A program made the translations under genes and the position numbers. DNA of 32,283 nucleotides from a bacterium (lineage in GTDB: Bacteria; ARS69), in contig JALGZR010000042.1 of assembly GCA_025774805.1 (NCBI GenBank), positions 1-32,283 of the forward strand. The letters are read 5' to 3'. Shown piece by piece: positions 1 through 21,435 of this stretch. The notes below the pieces were generated by a model. It had not been told where the DNA came from. It was given only the letters and a program-made list of their open reading frames with translations, and did not search any database. How positions within the stretch are numbered: position 1 is the first letter of the stretch; each line of letters starts with the position of its first letter.

Positions 1-2
1 CC

Positions 3-86
3 CTGGAGGTCCGGAGGAGCAATCTGGTACAGACCCTCTACGCGGGATCGCCCCGCGGGACTTCCACCGAGGAGAGACGATCATGA
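3..86 (+). CDS. C-terminal end of a possible upstream gene, cut by the window edge
   Basis: A reading frame enters from the left edge and stops with TGA at 84-86, so its stop overlaps the ATG of the next gene in an ATGA arrangement. Only 27 codons are visible, ending in a polar tail (Glu-Glu-Arg-Arg-Ser). Most third positions are G or C, as in the real genes here. The overlap is typical of translational coupling, so this could be the previous gene of the ubiquitin-like operon, for instance a JAB peptidase or a target-recognition subunit. Nothing in the tail identifies a family. It could also be a chance open frame: the modifier's own frame is open back to base 2 too. Confidence 0.35.
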   Translation: MEVRRSNLVQTLYAGSPRGTSTEERRS

Positions 87-313
87 GTGCGACCATGACC
101 AAGACCGGAGAGGTGAACGTCACGTCGTTCGGACAGGGGACGTTCAAGTCGCGCGTCGCCGGCGGCCGGACGAGCGTGGGAGAGGTGCTCGAGGAGCACG
201 GCGTCGAGGTCGAAGGGCGTCGAATCGCCGTCAACGGACATCATGCCGACGCGAGCACCACCGTTCTGGAGGGAGACCAGGTCTCGGTCGTCCCCCGAGT
301 CCAGGGCGGGTGA
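83..313 (+). CDS. Ubiquitin-like beta-grasp modifier (ThiS/MoaD type) ending in Gly-Gly
   Basis: This 76-aa protein is the size of ThiS, MoaD and SAMP-type beta-grasp proteins. The last third carries the family pattern of an alternating Asn-Gly strand (IAVNGHHAD), a Leu-x-x-Gly-Asp turn (LEGDQVSVVP) and a C-terminus of Val-Gln-Gly-Gly directly before the stop. In this family the terminal glycine is adenylated by an E1 enzyme and then joined to sulfur or to a protein amine. Because Gly-Gly is already terminal, no peptidase is needed for maturation. The ATG has an AGGAGA-like site about eight bases upstream and overlaps an incoming stop codon. The two following genes look like E2 and E1 enzymes. 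That favours a protein-conjugation role over thiamine or molybdopterin synthesis, since no thi or moa genes are present. The fold assignment is strong; the role is inferred. Confidence 0.8.
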   Translation: MSATMTKTGEVNVTSFGQGTFKSRVAGGRTSVGEVLEEHGVEVEGRRIAVNGHHADASTTVLEGDQVSVVPRVQGG

Positions 314-338
314 ACGGACGCGGCAACGCGGCGGGGGC

Positions 339-360
339 GGCGGCGCGAGGCGGCGCCGCC
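339..360 (+). repeat. Perfect 8-bp GC inverted repeat between modifier and E2-like gene
   Basis: GGCGGCGC (339-346) and GCGCCGCC (353-360) are perfect reverse complements separated by a 6-base loop. The hairpin lies 26 bases after the modifier stop and ends 25 bases before the next ATG. There is no T-run after it, so it is not a canonical intrinsic terminator. It may stabilise the upstream mRNA end or partly attenuate transcription, which would make modifier more abundant than enzymes. Confidence 0.5.
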
Positions 361-385
361 GTCACCCCGTATCGGAGGGTGAGAG

Positions 386-1513
386 ATGAACACGCGAACG
401 TCGCATCGCTCGAGGAGAGAGATCGAGAGTGTGCAGCTCACGCAGTCCATTCACGACCGGCTGGAACGGCTGGCGACGTCCCGCCACGCGACGCTTCTCG
501 ATGACGCCGAGATCCCGATCCCGCCGGGGGATCCCGAGTCCATCGTGTCGGCGGTTCCCGCCGTGCGGCTCGTCCACGGGCGGCGGATCTACGAAGGGCG
601 ACGACAGAGATTTCGGTTCGGACGGGGAGGCAGCCACGCGACGATGCTCGCACGGCACCGCGCGCTGCCGGTCGATTCGGCCGGCTCGGACCGGATCGTC
701 CGGTGGGCGACGAATCGACACGGTCGACGGGTTCCCGTCGCGTGCGCGGACCGTGCGACCCGATCGATCCATGTGCTCGTCGACCTGTCCTCGGCCTGCG
801 TCGTCGGGCGCGAGGGGAGCCTGGACCCCGCCGATCTGCTCGTCGGCGAGCTGTTCGAGAGGCCGCTCGGCTTCCTCTTGGACGGGCGAGACGAGCCGAC
901 GGTGGGGCCCCGGGTCCGTGAGGCGGTGCGGCTGCTCCTGTCGGGGCGGACCGATCTCCTCTACGACCTGGCTCGGGGCGAGCTGTCGGTCCTCCAGCGT
1001 CTCGCCGCCACCGGACGGCTCCCGCGGGCGTTGGTGAGAAAGCTCGATACGCTGAAACGGACCACGGAACGGCGGGCGGAACGGGAGACGTCGAAGCCGG
1101 TGGATCCCCGACGCGTGGATCGTGAGATCTCTCGACTGCGCCATCTCGTCTCCCGGCGGGCCTGCTCGGCCCTCCGGTTCACCGACAGCGACATCGTCGG
1201 ACTCATGAACCCCCGGCGGTTCAAGGACGGCTGGACGCTACGACCGATGATGTTCCGCTTCCGGCCGAACCGATGCCGGGGTCGTCCCTTTCTGACGTTC
1301 TGGAATCCGTCGCGATCGGAGCCGCGCGACGGAAACGGCGTCTGTCTGGGGGAGGGGATCTTCATCCTGCGGGAGATCGAGAGCGGGGGCGACGTGTACG
1401 GGCTGGTGGACGGCGTCCTCAACTTCGTCGAGACGAATCTCGTGGGCGCCATTCCTCCGAACGGACGGCGGCGGAGGCGGCTGCTGCCCGAGTTGATCGA
1501 GGCCTGGTTCTGA
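386..1513 (+). CDS. E2-like conjugating protein with a large novel N-terminal region
   Basis: This 375-aa protein starts at an ATG seven bases after GGAGGG and sits 72 nt after the modifier gene. I recognise no family over residues 1-240, which are Arg-rich with a basic, probably helical stretch around residues 195-260. Residues about 278-355 resemble prokaryotic E2/UBC folds. They show a Phe/Arg-rich strand, then RPFLTFWNP in the place of the usual His-Pro-Asn segment, then a Gly-Val-Cys-Leu-Gly motif with Cys320, followed by a predicted helix. In E2 enzymes the Cys before Leu in this motif forms the thioester with the modifier. The Cys lies about 13 residues after the Asn-Pro, somewhat further than in eukaryotic E2s. 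Placement between a modifier and an E1 gene is the strongest support. The E2 assignment is by motif only; an adaptor or target protein is the alternative. Confidence 0.6.
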   Translation: MNTRTSHRSRREIESVQLTQSIHDRLERLATSRHATLLDDAEIPIPPGDPESIVSAVPAVRLVHGRRIYEGRRQRFRFGRGGSHATMLARHRALPVDSAGSDRIVRWATNRHGRRVPVACADRATRSIHVLVDLSSACVVGREGSLDPADLLVGELFERPLGFLLDGRDEPTVGPRVREAVRLLLSGRTDLLYDLARGELSVLQRLAATGRLPRALVRKLDTLKRTTERRAERETSKPVDPRRVDREISRLRHLVSRRACSALRFTDSDIVGLMNPRRFKDGWTLRPMMFRFRPNRCRGRPFLTFWNPSRSEPRDGNGVCLGEGIFILREIESGGDVYGLVDGVLNFVETNLVGAIPPNGRRRRRLLPELIEAWF

Positions 1514-1522
1514 AGTGCCCGG

Positions 1523-2323
1523 GTGATTCGTGCCGATCTGGCGGCGGCCGAGGCGGCTGCCGCCCGATTCGACCGGAGCCCGGTTCCGTTTCGATCCGGC
1601 GGTCCGCCGGGGGAGGTTGTCGTGGACGCGTTTCATCGCCAGCGGGACATCTTGACGTTGGCCGATCTGGCCGGACTGGACGTCGAGATCGTGGGGGCGG
1701 GGTCGCTCGGGGGGGCGATCCTGCTCTGCCTGGGCAAAATGGGTTTCGGATTCCACAACCGGATCACGGTGACCGACTTCGATCGGTGTGAGATGCACAA
1801 CCTGGCCACGCAGTGGTTCCGGCCGAGCCACGTCGCGCTCGAGGAGAGAAAGGTGGACGCGCTCGCCGAGCTGATGGCCTGGGTCTGCGATCTGGAAATC
1901 CGGACGGTCCCGGATCGGTTCACCGGAGACGAGGCGCGCCGGCTGGGTCCCGTGGTCGTCCAGTCCGTCGACACCCTCGAGGAGCGCCGCCGCATCTGGC
2001 AACGCCTGAGGAGCCGAGAGGACGTCCGGTTCCTCGTGGACGCGCGGATGGGGGCGGAGGTCCTCGAGATCCTGTGCGTCGATCTGGAGACCGACTCCCG
2101 GGAGGGCTACGAGCGCAGCCTCGACGACGAGGGGGAGCCCTACGTCGAGCCCTGCACCGGGCAGGCGATCCTCTACACGGCGCTCGGGGCGGCCGGGTTC
2201 GTCGGAAGCCTCCTGCGGGCGTACGCCCGGGGAGAGGACTTCCCGCGACGGATCGTCTTCGACTTCCGCCACTATCTCGTGAGCACGGAGAGCGCGGAGT
2301 TGTTGAGCGCCCAAGCGGGGTAG
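1523..2323 (+). CDS. E1-like ThiF/MoeB-family adenylating enzyme
   Basis: The 266-aa reading frame contains a ThiF/MoeB/E1 Rossmann fold. It has a HRQRD segment before the fold, the nucleotide loop GAGSLGG (residues 58-64), an acidic ribose-binding strand followed by CEMHNLATQ (the family's NLxRQ position), a conserved RKVDAL helix, and a Val-Asp-x-Leu-Glu-x-Arg region. Cys211 in EPYVEPCTGQ is the best candidate for the transthiolation cysteine. E1 enzymes use ATP to adenylate the modifier's C-terminal glycine, then transfer it to a cysteine. The gene begins nine bases after the E2-like stop. The GTG at 1523 has no clear ribosome site, whereas an in-frame GTG at 1622 follows GGGAGG by five bases and would still give the whole fold (233 aa). 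No rhodanese or other fused domain is present. Confidence 0.82.
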   Translation: MIRADLAAAEAAAARFDRSPVPFRSGGPPGEVVVDAFHRQRDILTLADLAGLDVEIVGAGSLGGAILLCLGKMGFGFHNRITVTDFDRCEMHNLATQWFRPSHVALEERKVDALAELMAWVCDLEIRTVPDRFTGDEARRLGPVVVQSVDTLEERRRIWQRLRSREDVRFLVDARMGAEVLEILCVDLETDSREGYERSLDDEGEPYVEPCTGQAILYTALGAAGFVGSLLRAYARGEDFPRRIVFDFRHYLVSTESAELLSAQAG

Positions 2324-9298: not shown

Positions 9299-9327
9299 TT
9301 GAATCGGTCGCCCCGGTTTTGTACGCT
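9299..9327 (+). promoter_or_regulatory. Possible sigma70-type promoter of the beta-helix/repeat protein
   Basis: TTGAAT (9299-9304) and TACGCT (9322-9327) are separated by 17 bases and lie 28 nt before the ATG at 9355. The -35 match is four of six; the -10 match is weak (three of six). Position and spacing are good, but the sequence match alone is not decisive. Confidence 0.25.
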
Positions 9328-9354
9328 GGGAGCCTCCTTCCGGAGGACGCGACC

Positions 9355-12300
9355 ATGCTCTGTCCCGTCCACGCGCGTCCCCGTGCCTCTCGGGCGCTTC
9401 CGTCGATTCCCCTCGCGATCGTGGGCCTTCTGGTCTGCCTTCCGCCCGCCGGCGCCACGACGATCCACGTTCCTCAGCAGCAGCCGACGATTGCCGACGG
9501 CCTCGCCGCCGCCGTTCCCGGAGACACCGTGCTGGTGGCCTGCGGGACGTATCCGGAGCACGGGCTGGAGCTCGTCACCGGCGTCGTCCTTCGAAGCGAG
9601 ACCGGGCAGGCCGACTGCGTGACGATCGACGGTGAGCGCCAGGGGCGGGTCTTGACCGGCGTGACCCTGAGTCCCCAGACCCGCGTGATCGGGTTCACGA
9701 TCACCGGGGGGTACGACGACAGCGGGCCGATCCACGGGGACCGGAGCTTCGGCGATCCCGAGGAGGAGTACGCGGAGGGGTTGACGAGAGACGTCGAGCT
9801 GGGGCCCTGGGAACGCGACTACGGCGGAGGGGCGGGGTCTCACCTCATCCTGTCCGACCTGACGTTCGAGAGCTGCCGATTCGTGGACAACGAGGCGCTG
9901 ACCTACGGTGGGGGGGTCCGGGTCGAGGGAGGCTCACCCTTCTTCATCGACTGTGAATTCGAGGGCAACCTCGCGGGGACCCAGGGGGGCGGGCTCTTCG
10001 TCGCCGGATCGGCCGGCACCCCCGGAGGCACGAACGAGATCACCTTCATCGATTGCCTGATCACGGGGAACCGGGCCCGCAGCGGCGGCGGACTCTATGC
10101 CAGCCGAACCACGATCTCCGCGACGCGAACGCACGTGCGCGGAAACGTGGCGGAGCGGACGGGCGGCGGGATCGCCTCCGCCTTCTCCGGTCACGTTTGG
10201 ATCGAGGGTCTGATCGTCGAGAACGGGACCGAGGATCCGCTTCCCTCCCGCGGGGGCGCCCTGGCCCAGTTCGGGGGACTCGCCTCGTTTCAAGGATGCA
10301 CTTTCGCCCGCAACGACTCCCGGAACGCGAGCGCCGTTCTGGCCCACGATGCCGACGTGACCCTCGAGAACTGCCTCGTGGCCCTGCAGACCGAAAGCGC
10401 TCCACTCGACTGTGTCTACGGAGGCACCATCGATCTCACCTGTTGCGACCTCTTCGGAAACGCCGGCGGCGACTACGTCGGCTGCGTGGCGGACCAGTTC
10501 GCCGTCGACGGGAACATCCGGGCGAACCCCTTTTTCTGTGATGCGGCCAACGGGGACTACTCTCTCGCCATCGGATCTCCCTGCCTTCCCGACGGCAACC
10601 CGTGCGGCCTCCTGATCGGTGCGCTCGGGCCGGGCTGCGATCTGGGCGCACTGGTCCTCGTGACGACCGTCCCGCCCGGACTCTTCATTCTCGTCGACGG
10701 GGACACGATGACGGCCCCGGCCTACTTCGGGTGGGTCCCCGGGTCCCCGCACGAGATCGGCACGATCGCCCCCCAGGAGCCGGCCCCGGGGGTGCGTCAC
10801 GACTTCGTCGCCTGGAGCGATGGGGGCGCGCTGATTCACACGGTGATCGCTCCCGACACCGCCCTCGTCCTCACGGCCGAGTTCACCACCGAATACCACC
10901 TGACCACGGCCTCGAGTCCCGGCGGGACGGCCCTTCCTCCCTCCGGGTGGTTCTCCGCAGACGTTCCCGTCGAGCTGACGGCGGTTCCCGACCCGGACTA
11001 CGAGTTTTTCCACTGGGAGGGCTCCGGTCCGGGATCGTACACGGGACCCGAAAATCCGGTCACGATCACGATGATGGGTCCCGTCGAGGAATTCGCCCAC
11101 TTCATGTTCTCCGGGGACTACCTGCTCACGATGGTCGCGGACGGAAACGGATCGGTGTCTCCACCGACCGGTCCGTATCCCGTCGGAACCGAGGTGACGA
11201 TCGAGGCGGTCCCCGACTCCGGCCACCACTTCACGGGCTGGACGGGGCAGGGGCCCGGCTCCTACACGGGGCCCTGGCCGACGGCGACGGTGACGATGCT
11301 CGGTGACATCACCCAGATCGGGCACTTCGCCCCGACCCTCTACACGCTCACGATGTCGGTGCAAGGGCAGGGGACCGTGGAGCCGGGCTCGGGTCAGTAC
11401 CCGGAGGGGGCGACCGTCGCACTGGCGGCCTACCCCGCTCAGGGCTGGCTGTTTCACGAGTGGATCGGTGCCGGCGACGGCTCCTACTCGGGCCCCGATT
11501 CGACTCCGACCATCGTCATGAACAGCGACATAACGGAAGTCGCCGTCTTCACCTACATCGAGTCGTATCCCCTCACGATGACCGCGGGGCCGGGGGGAAG
11601 CGTGACGCCGCCGAGTGGAGACTACCCGAACGGGGCGACGATCGAGATCACCGCGATCCCGGACCTGGGACACTCTTTCGTATACTGGACCGGAACCGGT
11701 CTCGGCTCCTATACGGGGGGAGACAATCCCGCCACCATCACGATGCTCGACGCGATCACGGAGTTCGCGACGTTTCAGCCGGAGTCCGACGTCACGCTCA
11801 CGACGGTGGCGGACACGGGGGGCACGGTGACTCCGCCCTCGGGGGAGTACCCGTACGGCAGCGTGGTGACGCTGGAGGCCGTTCCCGACTCGGGATACGC
11901 CTTCGCCGCCTGGGTCGGCGAGGGTGAGGGATCCTACACGGGGAATCTGAATCCCGTCGACGTGACTCTGGTGAGCTCGATCACCGAGACGGCGCTGTTC
12001 GAGCCCACCGTCTCGGTCACGATCACGACGGATCCCGTCGGATTCCCGATGGTCGTCGACGGTGACTCTGTCCTCTCACCTCAGACCTACGACTGGGCGC
12101 GCTGGTCGAGGCACGATGTCGCGGTGGACTCGCTCGTCGCGGGACCGCCCGGAGAGCGCCACCGCTTCCTGGCCTGGAACGACGGTTACACGCATCCCGC
12201 CCGGCAGATCCGTCCGGTTGAGGACGTCGAGATCCATACGGCGTTCTACACTCTCGAGTACTTCCTGGATTTCGTCGATCCACCCGAGGGATGGTCGATT

Positions 12301-13512
12301 CCGGGCGATACGTGGTGGGAGCCCGGGGCGATCGTGGAAATCGAGGCGATTCCCGTTCCGGGTCACGAATTCGACCAGTGGACGGGGGAGGGCGACGGAT
12401 CCTACACGGGGTCGCAGAACCCGGTCTCCGTCACTTTGAACGAGCCCCTCGTGCAGATCCCGTCCTTCCTGCCGATCGTTCCCGATCCCTTCGGTCACGA
12501 GTTCTCCATCAGCGCGAGCGACACCGATCCCTTCGTGAACACCGCGGTGCCGGCCGGGGGAACCCGCCCCCTCTACTTCTGGGCGACGTGCCTCGAGGAG
12601 GGGCTCTCGGCGCTGGAGGCCGGGGTCGTCACGGACATGCCGGTCACCGGGTTCACGACCTCACCTGACGTCTACAACGTCGGGACTGCGACCGATCTCC
12701 TCCTGGCGATCGGCGGCTGCCCGGAAGGCCCGGAGGTCGACTTCCTGATCGGTCACTGGAGCGTCGTCGACGAAGGGGGCACGTTCTGCCTGGGTCCCTC
12801 CTCGGGGGGTCTTTTCGCGTCGATTGAATGCTCCGCGAACTTCATGGTCGAGAATCCGCGTCTTCTCGGCTTCTCCTCGACCGAGGAGGGCCCCTGTCTC
12901 ATCGACGACAATCCGTGCGTGGGGGGACGGACGCTCGCCTTGGAAGGGGAGATCCGATTCGAGGAACGGGAACACGCGCTGGAGCTCCGCTGGACACCGA
13001 GTGAACCGCGATCTTCGCGAGGGTGGCACGTCTACCGCTCGCTCCGCACCGGGGGACCCTACGAGCGGCTGACCCGCACCCTCGTCCCGGGCGGGGTCGT
13101 CCCCCGGTTCCTCGACGAAGCGGTCACGGGCGGCCTAGTCTATCATTACAAGCTTCTCGAGATCCGCGCGGGACGCCCCGGCTCCTCGGCGGGCCCGGCG
13201 ATCGGGGAAGCGCCGGTGTGGGCTCCCGCATACACGGCGTTCACCGACGTCGGCCCGAATCCGTTCCGGGAGAGAACGACCCTCCGCTTCTCCGTTCGGG
13301 ATCGGTCCCGAACCCGCCTCCGCCTGTACGACGTGAGCGGTCGTCTCGTCCGGCGTCTCGTCGACGGCGAACGAGAGAGCGGGTACCATGATGTCGTCTG
13401 GAACGGTCGGGACGATGCGGGACTTCGGGTGACCGGCGGGGTCTACTTCGCGCGACTCGAGATCGGCGGCTTCCGCGCCACTCGGAAGGTGTTGGTGCTG
13501 GGACCGAAATAG
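9355..13512 (+). CDS. Large exported beta-helix protein with GSYTG repeats and FlgD-like C-terminus
   Basis: The 1385-aa protein starts at ATG 9355, eight bases after CGGAGGA, with a signal peptide (AIVGLLVCLPPAGATT). Residues about 30-440 look like a right-handed parallel beta-helix of the pectate-lyase/DUF1565 kind, beginning TTIHVPQQQPTIADGLAAA with recurring GGG and C-x-F rungs. Residues 514-980 carry six InlB-B-like (Flg_new_2) repeats of about 72-75 residues, each with a GSYTG or GSYSG turn, interspersed with two larger VDGD modules. Residues about 990-1230 are an unassigned Cys-containing domain. A fibronectin-like segment follows, and the end (from residue 1296, DVGPNPFRERTTLRF to GGVYFARLE) is a FlgD Ig-like/sorting-type domain. 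This architecture indicates a surface or secreted adhesin, or a polysaccharide-interacting protein. Substrate and export route are not visible. Confidence 0.85.
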   Translation: MLCPVHARPRASRALPSIPLAIVGLLVCLPPAGATTIHVPQQQPTIADGLAAAVPGDTVLVACGTYPEHGLELVTGVVLRSETGQADCVTIDGERQGRVLTGVTLSPQTRVIGFTITGGYDDSGPIHGDRSFGDPEEEYAEGLTRDVELGPWERDYGGGAGSHLILSDLTFESCRFVDNEALTYGGGVRVEGGSPFFIDCEFEGNLAGTQGGGLFVAGSAGTPGGTNEITFIDCLITGNRARSGGGLYASRTTISATRTHVRGNVAERTGGGIASAFSGHVWIEGLIVENGTEDPLPSRGGALAQFGGLASFQGCTFARNDSRNASAVLAHDADVTLENCLVALQTESAPLDCVYGGTIDLTCCDLFGNAGGDYVGCVADQFAVDGNIRANPFFCDAANGDYSLAIGSPCLPDGNPCGLLIGALGPGCDLGALVLVTTVPPGLFILVDGDTMTAPAYFGWVPGSPHEIGTIAPQEPAPGVRHDFVAWSDGGALIHTVIAPDTALVLTAEFTTEYHLTTASSPGGTALPPSGWFSADVPVELTAVPDPDYEFFHWEGSGPGSYTGPENPVTITMMGPVEEFAHFMFSGDYLLTMVADGNGSVSPPTGPYPVGTEVTIEAVPDSGHHFTGWTGQGPGSYTGPWPTATVTMLGDITQIGHFAPTLYTLTMSVQGQGTVEPGSGQYPEGATVALAAYPAQGWLFHEWIGAGDGSYSGPDSTPTIVMNSDITEVAVFTYIESYPLTMTAGPGGSVTPPSGDYPNGATIEITAIPDLGHSFVYWTGTGLGSYTGGDNPATITMLDAITEFATFQPESDVTLTTVADTGGTVTPPSGEYPYGSVVTLEAVPDSGYAFAAWVGEGEGSYTGNLNPVDVTLVSSITETALFEPTVSVTITTDPVGFPMVVDGDSVLSPQTYDWARWSRHDVAVDSLVAGPPGERHRFLAWNDGYTHPARQIRPVEDVEIHTAFYTLEYFLDFVDPPEGWSIPGDTWWEPGAIVEIEAIPVPGHEFDQWTGEGDGSYTGSQNPVSVTLNEPLVQIPSFLPIVPDPFGHEFSISASDTDPFVNTAVPAGGTRPLYFWATCLEEGLSALEAGVVTDMPVTGFTTSPDVYNVGTATDLLLAIGGCPEGPEVDFLIGHWSVVDEGGTFCLGPSSGGLFASIECSANFMVENPRLLGFSSTEEGPCLIDDNPCVGGRTLALEGEIRFEEREHALELRWTPSEPRSSRGWHVYRSLRTGGPYERLTRTLVPGGVVPRFLDEAVTGGLVYHYKLLEIRAGRPGSSAGPAIGEAPVWAPAYTAFTDVGPNPFRERTTLRFSVRDRSRTRLRLYDVSGRLVRRLVDGERESGYHDVVWNGRDDAGLRVTGGVYFARLEIGGFRATRKVLVLGPK
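10894..12480 (+). repeat. Tandem protein repeats (six GSYTG-type, one interposed VDGD module)
   Basis: Repeat starts at the protein level fall near 10894, 11119, 11341, 11566, 11791 and 12259, with a VDGD-type module at 12016 and a related one just before 10894. Each unit runs from a Leu-Thr strand through a PPSG turn and a GHxFxxW core to a GSYTG loop and an ITMxxxITExAxF strand. The DNA is diverged between units, so the duplication is old. Confidence 0.8.
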
Positions 13513-15556: not shown

Positions 15557-15892
15557 AGAGATCTCGATCGGCCCTGCCCCCCGGGGCCCGCCGACATCGA
15601 AGGGGCGCGCCGCCGATCGCGGACGAGGATCCTCCGCGTCCCGGACACGACGATCGCCGAGTAATCGAGCGGATGACCCGGTTTCGCCCCGAACAAGACC
15701 GAGGATTCCGCCGGGAAGCCGTTTCTGATTGGAGGGAGGGACCGTTTCGCCGAGGACGAACAAGGTCGAGAAGCGGACCCGGTTTCCGGGTCCGACCTCC
15801 GAGAAACTCTGGATGGCCTCCGGTGAGGCGAAGACTCGTGGGGTACCCCATCCGCGGTCGGTCCCCGCCGAACGAATGGGCGGAGTCCACGC

Positions 15893-15928
15893 TCGACCGA
15901 GTGGCGATCGGGGGGTTATACATGTACA
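15893..15928 (+). promoter_or_regulatory. Possible promoter and operator of the benzoyl-CoA (box) operon
   Basis: TCGACC (15893-15898) and TATACA (15917-15922), 18 bases apart, resemble a sigma70 promoter about 45 nt upstream of the dehydrogenase ATG. The -10 overlaps the near-perfect 12-bp dyad TATACATGTACA (15917-15928), a placement expected for a repressor site. Each hexamer matches the consensus in only four positions. Confidence 0.35.
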
Positions 15929-15965
15929 CGGAGACCCATGCAACCCGGTATCAGGACGGAAAAAG

Positions 15966-17402
15966 ATGCGTACGGAGCTCCTGATCGACAACGATTGGCA
16001 CGCCTCCGCGTCCGGCGAGACCTTCTCCGTCGTCAATCCGGCGACCGAGGAAGTCATCGCCGAGGTGGCCAAGGGGGGCCGGGAGGACGCGGATCGGGCC
16101 GTGAAAGCCGCGCGCCGCTGCTTCGACTCGGTCGCCTGGCAGTCCATGGGTCTGCGAAAGCGGGGGCGCCTGCTCCTCCGCACGGCGGACCTGCTGGAGG
16201 CCCGGCTGGACGAGTTCGCGAAGCTCGAGACCGCCCAGAACGGCAAGACGTTCTTCGAGTCCCGCATCGAGATCGGCCTCGTCGTGAAGAGCCTGCGCTA
16301 TTTCGCCGGCTGGGCCGACAAGATCCACGGTGAGAGCGTTCCCGTCGAGGGTCCCTACTTTTGTTACACGCTCAAAGAGCCCGTCGGCGTGGTGGGGGCC
16401 ATCGTGCCCTGGAACTTCCCCCTCAACATCGCGAGCTGGAAGTTCGCGCCCGCCCTGGCGGTGGGATGCACGCTGGTTCTCAAGCCCGCCTCCGAGACTC
16501 CGCTCACGTCCCTCCTGTTCGGGGAGCTCCTCCTCGAGGCCGGCTTCCCGCCCGGAGCCTTCAACGTCATTACGGGCGCGGGCTCGGTCGCGGGTCGCGC
16601 GCTCGTCACGCACCCCGACGTCGACAAGATCACGTTCACGGGGTCGACCGAGGTCGGACGGGGTCTCATGAAGGACGCCGCCGAGACGAACAAGCGCGTC
16701 ACCCTCGAGCTCGGGGGCAAGAGCCCGAACATCGTCTTTGCCGACGCGGACATCGACGCGGCGATCCGTGGGGCGCAGACCGGGATCTTCTACTCCAAGG
16801 GTGAGGTCTGCGCCGCCGGATCGCGCCTTCTCGTGGAGAGAAGCGTCCACGACCGTGTCGTGGAGGGCCTCGCGGCGCGCGCGCAGAAGCTCAAGATCGG
16901 CGATCCCATGGACAAGAGCACCCGGCTCGGCGCCGTCGTCTCGCGAGGTCAGCTGGAGAGCGTGATGTCGTTGATCGAGACGGGAAAGAGAGAGGGCGGC
17001 AAGCTGATCGCCGGAGGCAACGCCCGCACCGTGAACGGCAAGGGCTTCTTCGTCGAGGCGACGGTGTTCGACGCCGTCGATCCCGGAATGACGATCGCTC
17101 GCGAGGAGATCTTCGGGCCCGTTCTCTCCGTTCTCACGTTCGAGGGCTACGACGAGGCCGTGTCCCTCGCCAACGACACGATCTACGGTCTCGCCTCCGG
17201 CATCTGGACGCGAGACATCGGCAAGGCCCACCGGACGGCGCGCGCGCTTCGCGCCGGGACGGTGTGGATCAACGCTTACAACGCCTACGATCCGGCCGCC
17301 TCCTTCGGCGGAACGAAGGCCTCCGGCTTCGGCCGGGATCTCGGTCGCGAGGCCCTCGAGGGGTACCTCGACACCAAGACGATCTGGGTCGCCTTGGACT
17401 GA
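15966..17402 (+). CDS. NAD(P)+-dependent aldehyde dehydrogenase of the box operon
   Basis: The 478-aa protein is a typical ALDH-superfamily enzyme of the betaine/phenylacetaldehyde-dehydrogenase type. It has Asn150 in PWNFPLN, the nucleotide-binding FTGSTEVGR segment, general base Glu248 in LELGGKSPN, nucleophile Cys282 in GEVCAAGSR and EEIFGPVLSV near the end. The chosen ATG at 15966 gives the standard N-terminus; upstream in-frame codons are not conserved. It is the first gene of an operon with boxC and boxB. In the box pathway a semialdehyde (3,4-dehydroadipyl-CoA semialdehyde) must be oxidised, so this enzyme may replace BoxD. It is, however, shorter and of a different ALDH type than BoxD as I know it. 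Oxidation of an aromatic aldehyde to benzoate is the alternative. Confidence 0.9.
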   Translation: MRTELLIDNDWHASASGETFSVVNPATEEVIAEVAKGGREDADRAVKAARRCFDSVAWQSMGLRKRGRLLLRTADLLEARLDEFAKLETAQNGKTFFESRIEIGLVVKSLRYFAGWADKIHGESVPVEGPYFCYTLKEPVGVVGAIVPWNFPLNIASWKFAPALAVGCTLVLKPASETPLTSLLFGELLLEAGFPPGAFNVITGAGSVAGRALVTHPDVDKITFTGSTEVGRGLMKDAAETNKRVTLELGGKSPNIVFADADIDAAIRGAQTGIFYSKGEVCAAGSRLLVERSVHDRVVEGLAARAQKLKIGDPMDKSTRLGAVVSRGQLESVMSLIETGKREGGKLIAGGNARTVNGKGFFVEATVFDAVDPGMTIAREEIFGPVLSVLTFEGYDEAVSLANDTIYGLASGIWTRDIGKAHRTARALRAGTVWINAYNAYDPAASFGGTKASGFGRDLGREALEGYLDTKTIWVALD

Positions 17403-17468
17403 CCCGAAGCGAGCGTGCGGCGTTGCGCGATCGCCCGGATCGGTCCGGCGTTCCGACCGGCCAAGGTC

Positions 17469-19133
17469 ATGAACGAGAAGGACGACAGATCGATGATTCC
17501 TCTGGACTTTGAGAGACATCCCGACGACTACCACCATTGGCGACTGACGATCGATGGAAGCGTCGCCACGCTGGCGATGGACGTCGACGAGAGCCGTCCG
17601 GCGACCGGCGACTACGCCCTGAAGCTGAATTCCTACGACATCGGAGTGGACATCGAGCTCGCAGACGCGATCCAGCGGCTGCGTTTCGAGCACCCTGAAG
17701 TGCGCTGCCTCGTCGTCTCCAGCCTCAAGGAGCGGATGTTCTGCGCAGGGGCGAACATCTTCATGCTCGGCGCCTCGGATCACGGCTTCAAGGTCAACTT
17801 CTGCAAGTACACGAACGAGACCCGGCTCGCCATCGAGGACTTGAGCGAGAACAGCGGCATCGGGTCTCTCTGCGCCGTGAACGGCACCTGCGCCGGAGGG
17901 GGATACGAGCTGGCCTTGGCCTGTGACGAGATCCTCCTCGTCGACGACGGGAGCTCCACCGTCAGCCTGCCCGAGGTGCCCCTCCTCGGAGTTCTCCCGG
18001 GAACGGGGGGCCTGACTCGGGTCGTCGACAAGCGCAAGGTCCGCCGGGACCGCGCCGACTTCTTCTGCACGGTCGCGGAGGGGATCAAGGGGAGGCGGGC
18101 GCGGGAGTGGGGCCTCGTGGACGCTCTGGCGTCGCGCAGCAAGTTCGAGAACGCTGTGGCGGAGAGGGCGGAGGCCCTCGCCGCGCGCTCCGACCGCCCC
18201 GAGGGGGCGCGGGGAATCGTTCTCGAGAAGCTCGACCCCGAGGTCAGCGAGTCTTCCATCGAATACCGACACGTCACGGTGAGCCTCGACGGTGGCCAGC
18301 GAACCGCCGAGATCACGGTGCGCGCCCCCGATGGAGACGAGCCGGACGATCCCGAGGGGGTCCGGGAACGGGGCTCCCGGTACTGGCCGCTCGCGGCGTT
18401 TCGCGAGCTCGACGACGCTCTCCTCCGGCTCCGATTCAACCGGATCGAGATCGGGACCTTGGTTCTGAAGACGGAGGGAGATCCCGAGCGGGTGCTCGCC
18501 GTCGACCGGGCCCTCGACACCCACCGGGGTCACTGGCTGGTCCGCGAGATCATCCACTTCGTCAAGCGCACGCTCAAGCGGCTCGATCTCACGGCCCGGA
18601 CTACGTACGCGCTCATCGAGCCGGGATCCTGCTTCGCCGGCACGCTGCTCGAGCTGGCTCTCTCGGCCGATCGCGCCTACATGCTCGACGATCCCGACGC
18701 GGAGAACCGGGTGCATCTGTCGGTCATGAACCGCGGATCCTATCCGATGTCGAACGGCCTCTCCCGCATCGGAATGCGCTTCCTCGGAGATCCCGACGGG
18801 GCGGAAGCGGTCTTCGATCACGCCGGACCGTTCGATCCGCAGGAGGCCCTGGACGCGGGACTCGTGACGTTCGCGCCCGACGACATCGACTGGGAGGACG
18901 AGGTTCGCATCGCGCTCGAGGAGCGCGCGACGCTCTCGCCCGACGCGTTGACGGGCATGGAGGCAAACCTGCGCTTCGCGGGACCGGAGACGCTGGAGAC
19001 CAAGATCTTCGGCCGGCTGTCCGCGTGGCAGAATTGGATCTTTCAGCGGCCCAACGCCGTCGGCGACAGCGGCGCCCTGAAAGTGTACGGAAAGGCCGGG
19101 CGCCGGCCGGAGTTCGATTGGAGGCGGACATGA
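17469..19133 (+). CDS. boxC: 2,3-epoxybenzoyl-CoA dihydrolase (benzoyl-CoA-dihydrodiol lyase) BoxC
   Basis: The 554-aa protein has the size and two-part crotonase architecture of BoxC. The N-terminus DFERHPDDYHHWRL is characteristic of the family. The first crotonase half contains MFCAGANIFMLG and GTCAGGGYELALACDEI, followed by PLLGVLPGTGGLTRV; the second half carries YALIEPGSCFAGTLLELALSADR. BoxC hydrolyses the epoxide product of benzoyl-CoA epoxidation and cleaves the ring, giving 3,4-dehydroadipyl-CoA semialdehyde and formate. ATG 17469 is chosen because it gives the usual BoxC length. ATG 17493, with AAGGA upstream, is a close alternative, and the GTG at 17415 adds only unconserved residues. 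The stop overlaps the boxB start (ATGA at 19130-19133), so the two are translationally coupled. The enzyme would act in the cytoplasm. Confidence 0.95.
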   Translation: MNEKDDRSMIPLDFERHPDDYHHWRLTIDGSVATLAMDVDESRPATGDYALKLNSYDIGVDIELADAIQRLRFEHPEVRCLVVSSLKERMFCAGANIFMLGASDHGFKVNFCKYTNETRLAIEDLSENSGIGSLCAVNGTCAGGGYELALACDEILLVDDGSSTVSLPEVPLLGVLPGTGGLTRVVDKRKVRRDRADFFCTVAEGIKGRRAREWGLVDALASRSKFENAVAERAEALAARSDRPEGARGIVLEKLDPEVSESSIEYRHVTVSLDGGQRTAEITVRAPDGDEPDDPEGVRERGSRYWPLAAFRELDDALLRLRFNRIEIGTLVLKTEGDPERVLAVDRALDTHRGHWLVREIIHFVKRTLKRLDLTARTTYALIEPGSCFAGTLLELALSADRAYMLDDPDAENRVHLSVMNRGSYPMSNGLSRIGMRFLGDPDGAEAVFDHAGPFDPQEALDAGLVTFAPDDIDWEDEVRIALEERATLSPDALTGMEANLRFAGPETLETKIFGRLSAWQNWIFQRPNAVGDSGALKVYGKAGRRPEFDWRRT

Positions 19134-20572
19134 AGCAGTACGATCAGGGAAAGATCCCCAACAACGTAAACCTGTCCGAGGACCGACGACTGCAACGAGC
19201 CCTCGAGCGCTGGCAGCCCGCCTACATCGACTGGTGGAAGGACATGGGTCCGTCCGGTTTTCAGGAACACCACCTGGTCTACCTGCGGACCGCCATCGGC
19301 ACCGACGCCAAGGGTTGGGCCCACTTCGAGTACGTCAAGATGCCCGACTACCGATGGGGGATCTTCCTCTCGGAAGCCGAGGCGAACCGACAGATCGGGT
19401 TCGGAGACTTCTACGGCGAAGAGGTGTGGCAGGAGCTCCCGGGCGAGTACCGGAACCCGCTCCGCCGGCTGATCGTCACCCAGGGCGACACGGAGCCCGC
19501 CTCCGTCGAGCAGCAGCGGTTCCTCGGGCAGAGCTGTCCGAGCATCTACGACATCCGGAACCTCTTCCAGGTGAACGTGGAAGAGGGGCGGCACTTGTGG
19601 GCGATGGTTTACCTTCTCCACTCATTCTTCGGACGGGACGGTCGCGACGAGGCCGAGGAGCTCCTCGAGCGCCGGAGCGGGAACGAGGACAAGCCTCGGA
19701 TTCTGGGCGCGTTCAACGAGCCGGTGACGAACTGGCTCGACTTCTTCGCCTTCACGATGTTCATCGATCGCGACGGGAAGTACCAGCTCCTCGCCCTCTC
19801 CGAGAGCGCCTTCGATCCGCTGTCCCGCACGACGCGGTTCATGCTGCGTGAGGAGGCCCACCACATGTTCGTCGGGGAGACGGGCATCGCCCGGATCGTG
19901 GATCGGACGGCTCAGCTTCTCAAGGAACAGAAGGGAGTGGCGGAGGACGTTCGGAAGGCGGGAGGCATCGATCTCGAGACGATTCAGAAGACCATCAATC
20001 TCTGGTTCAGTCTCGCGCTCGATCTCTTCGGAAGCGAGATCTCCTCGAACGCGGCGACGTACTTCGCGAACGGTCTCAAGGGTCGCGTGAACGAGCGGGA
20101 CTACGACGATCACGTCGCCAAGGACGACGCATACCGGCTTCAGGTCCCGCACACGGAGAACGGCGGCGCGATCCGGCTCGTCTCGGAGGAGATCCCCATC
20201 CGCAACGCCATGAACGAGGTCCTCCGCGACGACTACGTGAAGGACTGCCAGCGTGGCCTCAACAACTGGAACAGAGTACTCGCGAAGCACGGGCTGTCCG
20301 ACCGACTGAAGCTCCCCAGCAAGCGGTTCCACCGGAACCAGGGAATCTACGCGGGCCTGCACTTCGACCCCGAGGGGAATCCGGTCGACGAGGCGACCTG
20401 GAACCGGCGGCGCGACGAATGGGTGCCGTCCGAAGAGGATCGCAAGTTCATCGGGAGCCTCCAGAAGACGGCGATCTTCGAGCCCGATCAGATGGGTTAC
20501 TGGATCGCCCCTCCGAAGCGGGGGATCGACGGCAAGCCGGTGAACTGGGAGTACGTTCGCGTCGAGGCCTGA
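19130..20572 (+). CDS. boxB: Benzoyl-CoA 2,3-epoxidase oxygenase component BoxB
   Basis: This 480-aa protein matches BoxB in length and sequence from its start (NNVNLSEDRRLQRALERWQP). It is a class I di-iron monooxygenase. Two ExxH iron-ligand pairs are visible: Glu152-His155 in VEEGRHLW and Glu241-His244 in REEAHHMF. BoxB inserts one oxygen atom into benzoyl-CoA to form the 2,3-epoxide, using electrons from the reductase BoxA. The ATG lies four bases after TGGAGGCGG and overlaps the boxC stop. BoxA is not encoded anywhere in the window, so electrons must come from a reductase elsewhere in the genome. The gene is followed 11 nt later by the dehydrogenase gene, completing an apparent four-gene operon. 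Identification is confident; activity depends on the missing partner. Confidence 0.95.
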   Translation: MKQYDQGKIPNNVNLSEDRRLQRALERWQPAYIDWWKDMGPSGFQEHHLVYLRTAIGTDAKGWAHFEYVKMPDYRWGIFLSEAEANRQIGFGDFYGEEVWQELPGEYRNPLRRLIVTQGDTEPASVEQQRFLGQSCPSIYDIRNLFQVNVEEGRHLWAMVYLLHSFFGRDGRDEAEELLERRSGNEDKPRILGAFNEPVTNWLDFFAFTMFIDRDGKYQLLALSESAFDPLSRTTRFMLREEAHHMFVGETGIARIVDRTAQLLKEQKGVAEDVRKAGGIDLETIQKTINLWFSLALDLFGSEISSNAATYFANGLKGRVNERDYDDHVAKDDAYRLQVPHTENGGAIRLVSEEIPIRNAMNEVLRDDYVKDCQRGLNNWNRVLAKHGLSDRLKLPSKRFHRNQGIYAGLHFDPEGNPVDEATWNRRRDEWVPSEEDRKFIGSLQKTAIFEPDQMGYWIAPPKRGIDGKPVNWEYVRVEA

Positions 20573-20583
20573 CGGAGGCGCAC

Positions 20584-21435
20584 ATGAACCGGATCACGGT
20601 CCTCGGTGCCGGCACCATGGGCCGCGGGATCGCGCAGGTCGCGGCGACCGCCGGACACTCCGTGGTCCTTCACGACCTCGACCCCGCCGCGCTCGACGGG
20701 GCCCGCGCAAAGATCGAGAAGACCCTCGCCGGGGGCGTTGAGCGGGGGAAGCTCACGCCGGCGGAGCGGGACCGGGCCCTCGCCGGAATCGCCTACGAGG
20801 CGGACTTCGCGACGTCGCTGGCGCACGCCGACTTCGTCATCGAGGCCGTGGTCGAGAAGCTCGAGGTCAAGAAGGATCTCTTCGGCCGGGCGGAGGGCAT
20901 GGTGGGGGAGGACACGGTGCTCGCGAGCAACACCTCGTCCCTCCCGATCACGAAGATTGCCGGCGACCTCGCGCGGCCCGAGCGCGTGATCGGGATGCAC
21001 TTCTTCAATCCGGTGCACATCATGAGTCTGGTCGAGGTGGTCGTCGGGCGGGAGACGTCCCCGTCCGTGAAGGAGCGGACCCTCGAGCTCGTCTCCACTC
21101 TCGGCAAGGAGCCCGTCGTGGTCAACGACGCCCCCGGATTCGCGTCGAGCCGGCTGGGAATCGTGCTCGGACTCGAGGCGATGCGCATGGTCGAGCAGGG
21201 TGTCGCGTCCCCCCGGGACATCGATCGGGCGATGGAGCTCGGCTACCGGCACCCGATGGGGCCTCTCCGCCTGACCGATCTCGTCGGGCTCGACGTGCGC
21301 CTCTCGATCGCGGAGGCCCTCAGCCGCGAACTCGACGGCGACCAGTACCGGCCCCCGGAGATCCTCCGGCGTCTGGTGGCGGAGGGGAAGCTCGGGAAGA
21401 AGTCCGGCGAGGGCTTCTATCGCTGGGACGAGTAG
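20584..21435 (+). CDS. 3-hydroxyacyl-CoA dehydrogenase (Hbd/PaaH-like)
   Basis: The 283-aa protein has the length of short-chain single-unit 3-hydroxybutyryl-CoA dehydrogenases. The NAD-binding loop is VLGAGTMGRGIAQVAA at the N-terminus. The catalytic segment HFFNPVHIMSLVEVV contains the His of the His-Glu pair, followed by VVNDAPGFASSRL and a C-terminal dimer domain (YRHPMGPLRLTDLVGLD). It oxidises an L-3-hydroxyacyl-CoA to the 3-ketoacyl-CoA with NAD+. It is last in the box operon, 11 nt after boxB. There it would logically produce 3-oxoadipyl-CoA from 3-hydroxyadipyl-CoA after ring cleavage, as PaaH does in phenylacetate degradation. That substrate is inferred from context. A hydratase for the previous step is not in the operon; the one at 5758 is a candidate. 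Confidence 0.93.
   Translation: MNRITVLGAGTMGRGIAQVAATAGHSVVLHDLDPAALDGARAKIEKTLAGGVERGKLTPAERDRALAGIAYEADFATSLAHADFVIEAVVEKLEVKKDLFGRAEGMVGEDTVLASNTSSLPITKIAGDLARPERVIGMHFFNPVHIMSLVEVVVGRETSPSVKERTLELVSTLGKEPVVVNDAPGFASSRLGIVLGLEAMRMVEQGVASPRDIDRAMELGYRHPMGPLRLTDLVGLDVRLSIAEALSRELDGDQYRPPEILRRLVAEGKLGKKSGEGFYRWDE

Follow-up and report, generated by a model that had tools for sequence, protein, structure and literature searches.

Three genes at the edge of a contig from a small uncultured phylum raise the question of whether a ubiquitin-like modifier, an E2-like protein and an E1-like enzyme form a protein-conjugation system there and, if so, whether that system belongs to a known type. The contig, C221 of a 5.1-Mb metagenome-assembled genome, constitutes the whole stretch of 32,283 nucleotides analyzed here (the window). 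The genes are collinear on the plus strand within window positions 83 to 2323, with gaps of 72 and 9 nt, and the contig edge lies 82 nt 5' of the modifier gene (Table 1). The original prediction had described a 76-amino-acid beta-grasp open reading frame (ORF) ending exactly in Gly-Gly, a 375-amino-acid ORF with Cys320 in a GVCLG motif, and a ThiF-type E1, on one strand with short gaps; the ORFs confirmed all three at their positions, and the modifier and E1 exceeded the cut-offs of the Pfam ThiS and ThiF families. Because the same gene order recurs in two other genera with 35 to 62% protein identity, the three ORFs are not a product of chance.

Table 1. Positions of the operon, its proposed functional residues and associated loci (window coordinates unless a locus is named)
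Feature	Position	Strand	Evidence or remark
5' leader of the operon	1..82	+	First 114 bp (1-114) common to contig C2, exact end overlap
Ubiquitin-like modifier (beta-grasp, ThiS/SAMP-like), 76 aa	83..313	+	Pfam ThiS, E 1.1e-8
E2-like carrier, 375 aa	386..1513	+	Present also in a further two genera; E2 position in the homologous operons
Putative E2 (UBC-like) domain, residues about 239-358	1100..1459	+	Profile alignment above 200/200 shuffles
Codon of Cys320, proposed thioester-forming residue	1343..1345	+	Cys-x-Gly invariant in 3 window-type and 29 four-gene E2s
E1-like adenylating enzyme, single ThiF domain	1523..2323	+	Pfam ThiF, E 1.7e-12; start at 1523 or about 1622
Codon of E1 Cys211 (E-P-C-T), proposed E1 thioester cysteine	2153..2155	+	Invariant in eight-E1 alignment
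Orphan 477-aa gene	L005:364-1794, contig C2	+ (divergent from operon)	About 280-330 bp upstream of modifier
Loci with 313-397-aa / ~498-aa neighbors	L031, L068, L071, L074, L076, L077, L080-L083, L085, L087, L092, L093		

The modifier matches PF02597 (ThiS) with 35.9 bits (cut-off, 22.5), and its nearest solved relatives are SAMP2 and PF1061. Its reading frame closes with VPRVQGG-stop, which makes Gly75-Gly76 the mature end, and the Gly-Gly end is conserved in the modifier homologue of another genus. The E1 matches PF00899 (ThiF) with 47.5 bits (cut-off, 28.1), has UBA6 and other E1s as its best PDB relatives, and is 58 to 62% identical across the three genera. A GTG start at 1523 gives an E1 of 266 amino acids; since conservation begins near 1622, the true start may lie there. 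The cysteine of its PCT motif (Cys211) is invariant. A second ThiF-family E1 is encoded elsewhere in the genome, at C57.

The middle protein consists of an N-terminal half of no recognized fold, central helices and a C-terminal putative E2 domain. Searches of Pfam, NCBIfam, PADLOC and PDB sequences gave no significant match. Homologues with 35 to 39% identity to it occur in a further two genera of its bacterial family, and Cys320 and the Cys-x-Gly motif are invariant in all three of these window-type proteins. Weaker genome matches (in G071, G187 and G295) were short, one of them with stops.

When 386 genomes were searched with a profile of the window E1, seven relatives came from unrelated genomes. 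These E1s are collinear with the window E1 over the full length where they stand in four-gene operons (27 to 35% identity), as five of the seven do; those operons also encode a modifier, a protein of the JAB metalloprotease family and a protein of 365 to 470 residues carrying an HPH-x(n)-C-x-G pattern. With a profile of the latter protein, more copies were found in the large phylum of genome G139, planctomycete-like by inferred affiliation, one genome holding as many as five. All four genes are present in 29 of 29 loci, 24 of which were found through the E2 profile alone. The JABs retain the JAMM motif (H-x-H...S-x2-D), the CT motif of the E1 recurs in most planctomycete-like E1s, and the HPH, the Cys, the Gly and the following Leu are invariant in the 29 E2-slot proteins. 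E2 active sites have the layout His-Pro-x ... Cys, and the HPH...Cys pattern of the four-gene proteins is that layout. No model in Pfam, NCBIfam or PADLOC matched this E2 family; missed by every profile library used, such systems are probably more numerous than present annotation shows. They may be partly known, as a review reports related ubiquitylation operons in Actinobacteria, Planctomycetes and Acidobacteria (PMC4197634).

Several further features of the four-gene loci were observed. The C-terminal Cys cluster of the planctomycete-like E2s (L068-L087, L091-L094) matches B-box/RING domains (best, Midline-1; E, 6.5e-4), so these proteins could possibly be E2s with a built-in E3-like part. 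Beside many of the operons stand a conserved protein of 313 to 397 amino acids and an AAA-like protein of about 498 amino acids; such conserved neighbors, and five operon copies in one genome, make a larger repeated module likely. A distant E1 of the same family in G176 (L030:5024-5629) has no recognizable modifier, E2 or JAB adjoining it.

The middle protein of the window occupies the slot between modifier and E1 that the E2 takes in the homologous four-gene operons. Profile-profile alignment with the four-gene E2s places Cys320-Leu-Gly on their Cys-x-Gly (E, 0.003 to 0.017) and an LNFVET stretch on their FLxxYN helix. The score exceeded all 200 column shuffles in each of four set-ups, one margin being narrow: hhalign gave 25.8 against maxima of 22.5 (domain) and 25.6 (whole protein) over 200 shuffles each, with the Cys-x-Gly as the anchor. 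A direct HMM search with a deep four-gene E2 profile was not significant (E, 0.2), and PRTRC-type E2s gave a weak Cys-on-Cys alignment (E, 0.09). AlphaFold models were of low confidence (mean pLDDT, 42 for the whole protein and 55 for the domain), and the whole-protein model was left out of the fold search. The domain model nevertheless runs helix, four strands, Cys, helix, helix, which is the E2 order. Its top 50 Foldseek matches contain 9 chains of UBC fold, among them the bacterial E2 of 8tyz/8tz0, but no single one of the 9 reaches significance; VIA-align returned no Z of 5 or above. Where the four-gene E2s have the HPH, the window-type proteins show unrelated residues surrounding an invariant Arg310; the three-sequence alignment contains no conserved His after the Cys. 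Taken together, support for an E2-like middle protein is good but not final, and with models of this confidence its E2 fold is a candidate rather than a demonstrated one.

The phylum comprises five genomes in our collection, and the set is present in three of them, representing the window genus and two others. The middle protein is missing from the other two, which belong to the same family and of which one is 100% complete. Among the carriers, one is filed at NCBI as a Gemmatimonadota MAG and another simply as "bacterium." The E1 directly follows the middle gene in both other genera; one has a Gly-Gly modifier in front, and the contig of the other begins inside the middle gene. At the loci of these genera, no gene separates the middle gene from the E1, and no JAB gene follows the E1 on its strand, so that the predicted absence of a JAB holds for the operon. 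The four-gene JAB profile likewise had no match in any of the phylum's five genomes, in a search run without a positive control.

Downstream of the window E1 is a drug/metabolite exporter gene (YedA-like, slightly below the NCBIfam cut-off). In the other two genera the genes behind the E1 differ from it and lie on the opposite strand, which indicates that the operon ends at the E1. The surrounding genes that were read are those of chromosomal metabolism, with no sign of a defense island or mobile context, and no relatives were found in viral contigs or plasmids. A promoter and terminator scan gave nothing scoring above shuffles.

The four-gene systems are the nearest relatives by homology of E1 and modifier, by the order Ub-E2-(JAB)-E1 in most of them, and by the Cys-x-Gly in the E2 slot. 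The window type differs from them in having neither JAB nor HPH (0 of 3 versus 29 of 29) and in lacking the C-terminal Zn-cysteine cluster of most four-gene E2s. Whereas four-gene modifiers mostly extend beyond the glycine, the window modifier stops exactly at Gly-Gly and so needs no processing, which fits the absence of a JAB. A distinct subtype had been predicted, and these differences uphold it; the large N-terminal half proposed as its mark does not distinguish it, because the four-gene E2s also carry a long N-terminal part before the E2-like domain. An E1 tree sets the window clade apart with full support, and the PRTRC E1s branch separately from it; in its root and in the nearest relative of the window clade, the tree fits derivation by loss and a sister lineage that never had a JAB alike.

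The reading that we favor, at a probability of roughly 0.7, is that the set is a protein-conjugation system cut down to three proteins. A conjugation system had been claimed from the outset, and the E1, the Gly-Gly modifier, the invariant Cys, the homology to the four-gene operons and the profile alignment measured against shuffles all argue for it. By analogy with homologous enzymes, the E1 would adenylate the Gly-Gly tail, a thioester would form on E1 Cys211, and the modifier would be handed to Cys320 of the 375-amino-acid protein. This protein would then transfer it to an amine, either of a target or of its own. Without a JAB, the tag would probably be long-lived or be taken off by a protease of another kind. 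Against this reading count the loss of the HPH, which is probably catalytic in the four-gene E2s, the lack of a conserved His after the Cys, the low-confidence models and the nonsignificant direct HMM search.

The main rival is a role in sulfur transfer, in which the Gly-Gly protein would be converted to a thiocarboxylate and the Cys320 protein would be a sulfur acceptor or transferase in another pathway. The modifier is indeed closest to ThiS, MoaD and SAMP2, which can carry sulfur, and the E1 consists of one ThiF domain. We nevertheless consider this role unlikely, because the separate ThiF-family E1 at C57 could cover such a job and because no sulfur or cofactor genes are nearby: among the ORFs read, no thiamine, molybdopterin or cysteine genes adjoin the operon in any of the three genera, in keeping with the prediction that its neighbors would not be thiamine or molybdopterin synthesis genes. 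The closest operons in other phyla, moreover, contain an E2 and a JAB. Somewhat more doubtful still is a middle protein that is a dead, UEV/RWD-like scaffold of E2 fold, with conjugation performed by the E1 alone or by another protein, much as archaeal SAMPs need no E2 for their conjugation. The loss of the HPH with no histidine in its place would suit a dead scaffold, but every window-type protein retains the Cys, although much of the remaining sequence is down to 35% identity, and eukaryotic E2s that lack the HPN, such as UFC1 and ATG3, are active. A decaying, drifting remnant of a four-gene operon after loss of the JAB would account for the missing JAB and HPH and for carriage by three of the five genomes, yet it is highly improbable given that in three genera the frames stay open and the core residues of the E1 and both cysteines are retained, with E1s of 58 to 62% identity.

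A three-protein conjugation system can be set against the named bacterial types. Of the five operon types distinguished by Iyer et al. (2006, PMC1779556), type 6d, which likely corresponds to the PRTRC systems, is nearest in layout. In that type the classical His in front of the Cys is missing from the E2-like protein, which has one after the Cys (PMC1779556), whereas the window type has a His in neither place. PRTRC systems resemble the window in having Ub, E2-like protein and E1 as separate genes, in a Cys-x-Gly in the E2, and in the weak Cys-on-Cys alignment. The window type differs from them in having no JAB and no conserved His after the Cys; its E1 scores 30.9 bits against the PRTRC ThiF model TIGR03736 (cut-off, 144.75), and the middle protein does not match PRTRC Prok-E2_D (PF14460). 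Bil systems contain BilA with two Ub domains, BilB with a CEHH motif, the JAB BilC and BilD with two adenylation domains (PMC11354881). Like the window set, they combine a modifier, an E2-like protein and an E1 within a single operon, but all four components differ, the window having a single-domain modifier of 76 amino acids, no His after Cys320, no JAB and an E1 of 266 amino acids. Cap2 of type II CBASS is an E1-E2 fusion whose PADLOC models the window E1 matches weakly; in the window, E1 and E2-like protein are separate, and no cGAS-like gene occurs among the neighboring ORFs. Bub is not known to use the usual cysteine intermediates. It resembles the window set as a diverged bacterial Ub/E1/E2 operon, and the window type would differ from it in that both cysteines are invariant; the profile searches yielded no match to Bub and no model of it. 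In the literature searched we found no description of a variant without JAB and HPH that has a divergent partner.

That partner is the orphan gene on contig C2, whose end overlaps window bases 1 to 114 exactly. A homologue with 43% identity (L099) is present in G004, where its contig overlaps the operon contig likewise, in the same orientation and by exactly 114 bp. The gene is absent from the two operon-less relatives, and it was not found in G003 (an 82% complete genome) or beside the four-gene operons; a weak, partial relative occurs in G323 (L100), and the protein matched nothing in Pfam, NCBIfam, PADLOC or PDB. We regard it as a conserved partner of the operon and a candidate fourth component, as a regulator, as a target or possibly as a factor acting after conjugation. 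The assemblies of both genera break at a near-identical point, some 32 nt past the start of the modifier gene (window 1-114, L033:1-114); the assembler (k=115) meeting a variable site may account for this, or coincidence. An invertible segment at the break was considered and rejected, no repeats being found nearby.

A fuller reading, which we put forward only tentatively, is one-way conjugation by an E2 without HPN or HPH, with no dedicated deconjugase, with the 477-amino-acid protein as the system's own target or regulator, and confined to a little-known phylum. The locus suggests that bacterial modifier-E2-E1 systems can dispense with both a deconjugase and the HPH while keeping the cysteine relay. 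It offers a natural minimal set for testing E2 catalysis without HPN-type residues, and the 477-amino-acid protein is a concrete candidate target or regulator.

Two other regions of the window deserve mention. Genes of the aerobic benzoyl-CoA (box) pathway occupy 15729-21435, with BoxC (17415-19133) and BoxB (within 18107-20572) both above the NCBIfam cut-offs, and this region also has an aldehyde dehydrogenase and a 3-hydroxyacyl-CoA dehydrogenase. Positions 9319-13512 encode an apparently exported protein of 1397 amino acids, with a beta-helix-like start, repeat units of the YTLTM...GxGSYTG kind and a sorting-like C-terminal end.
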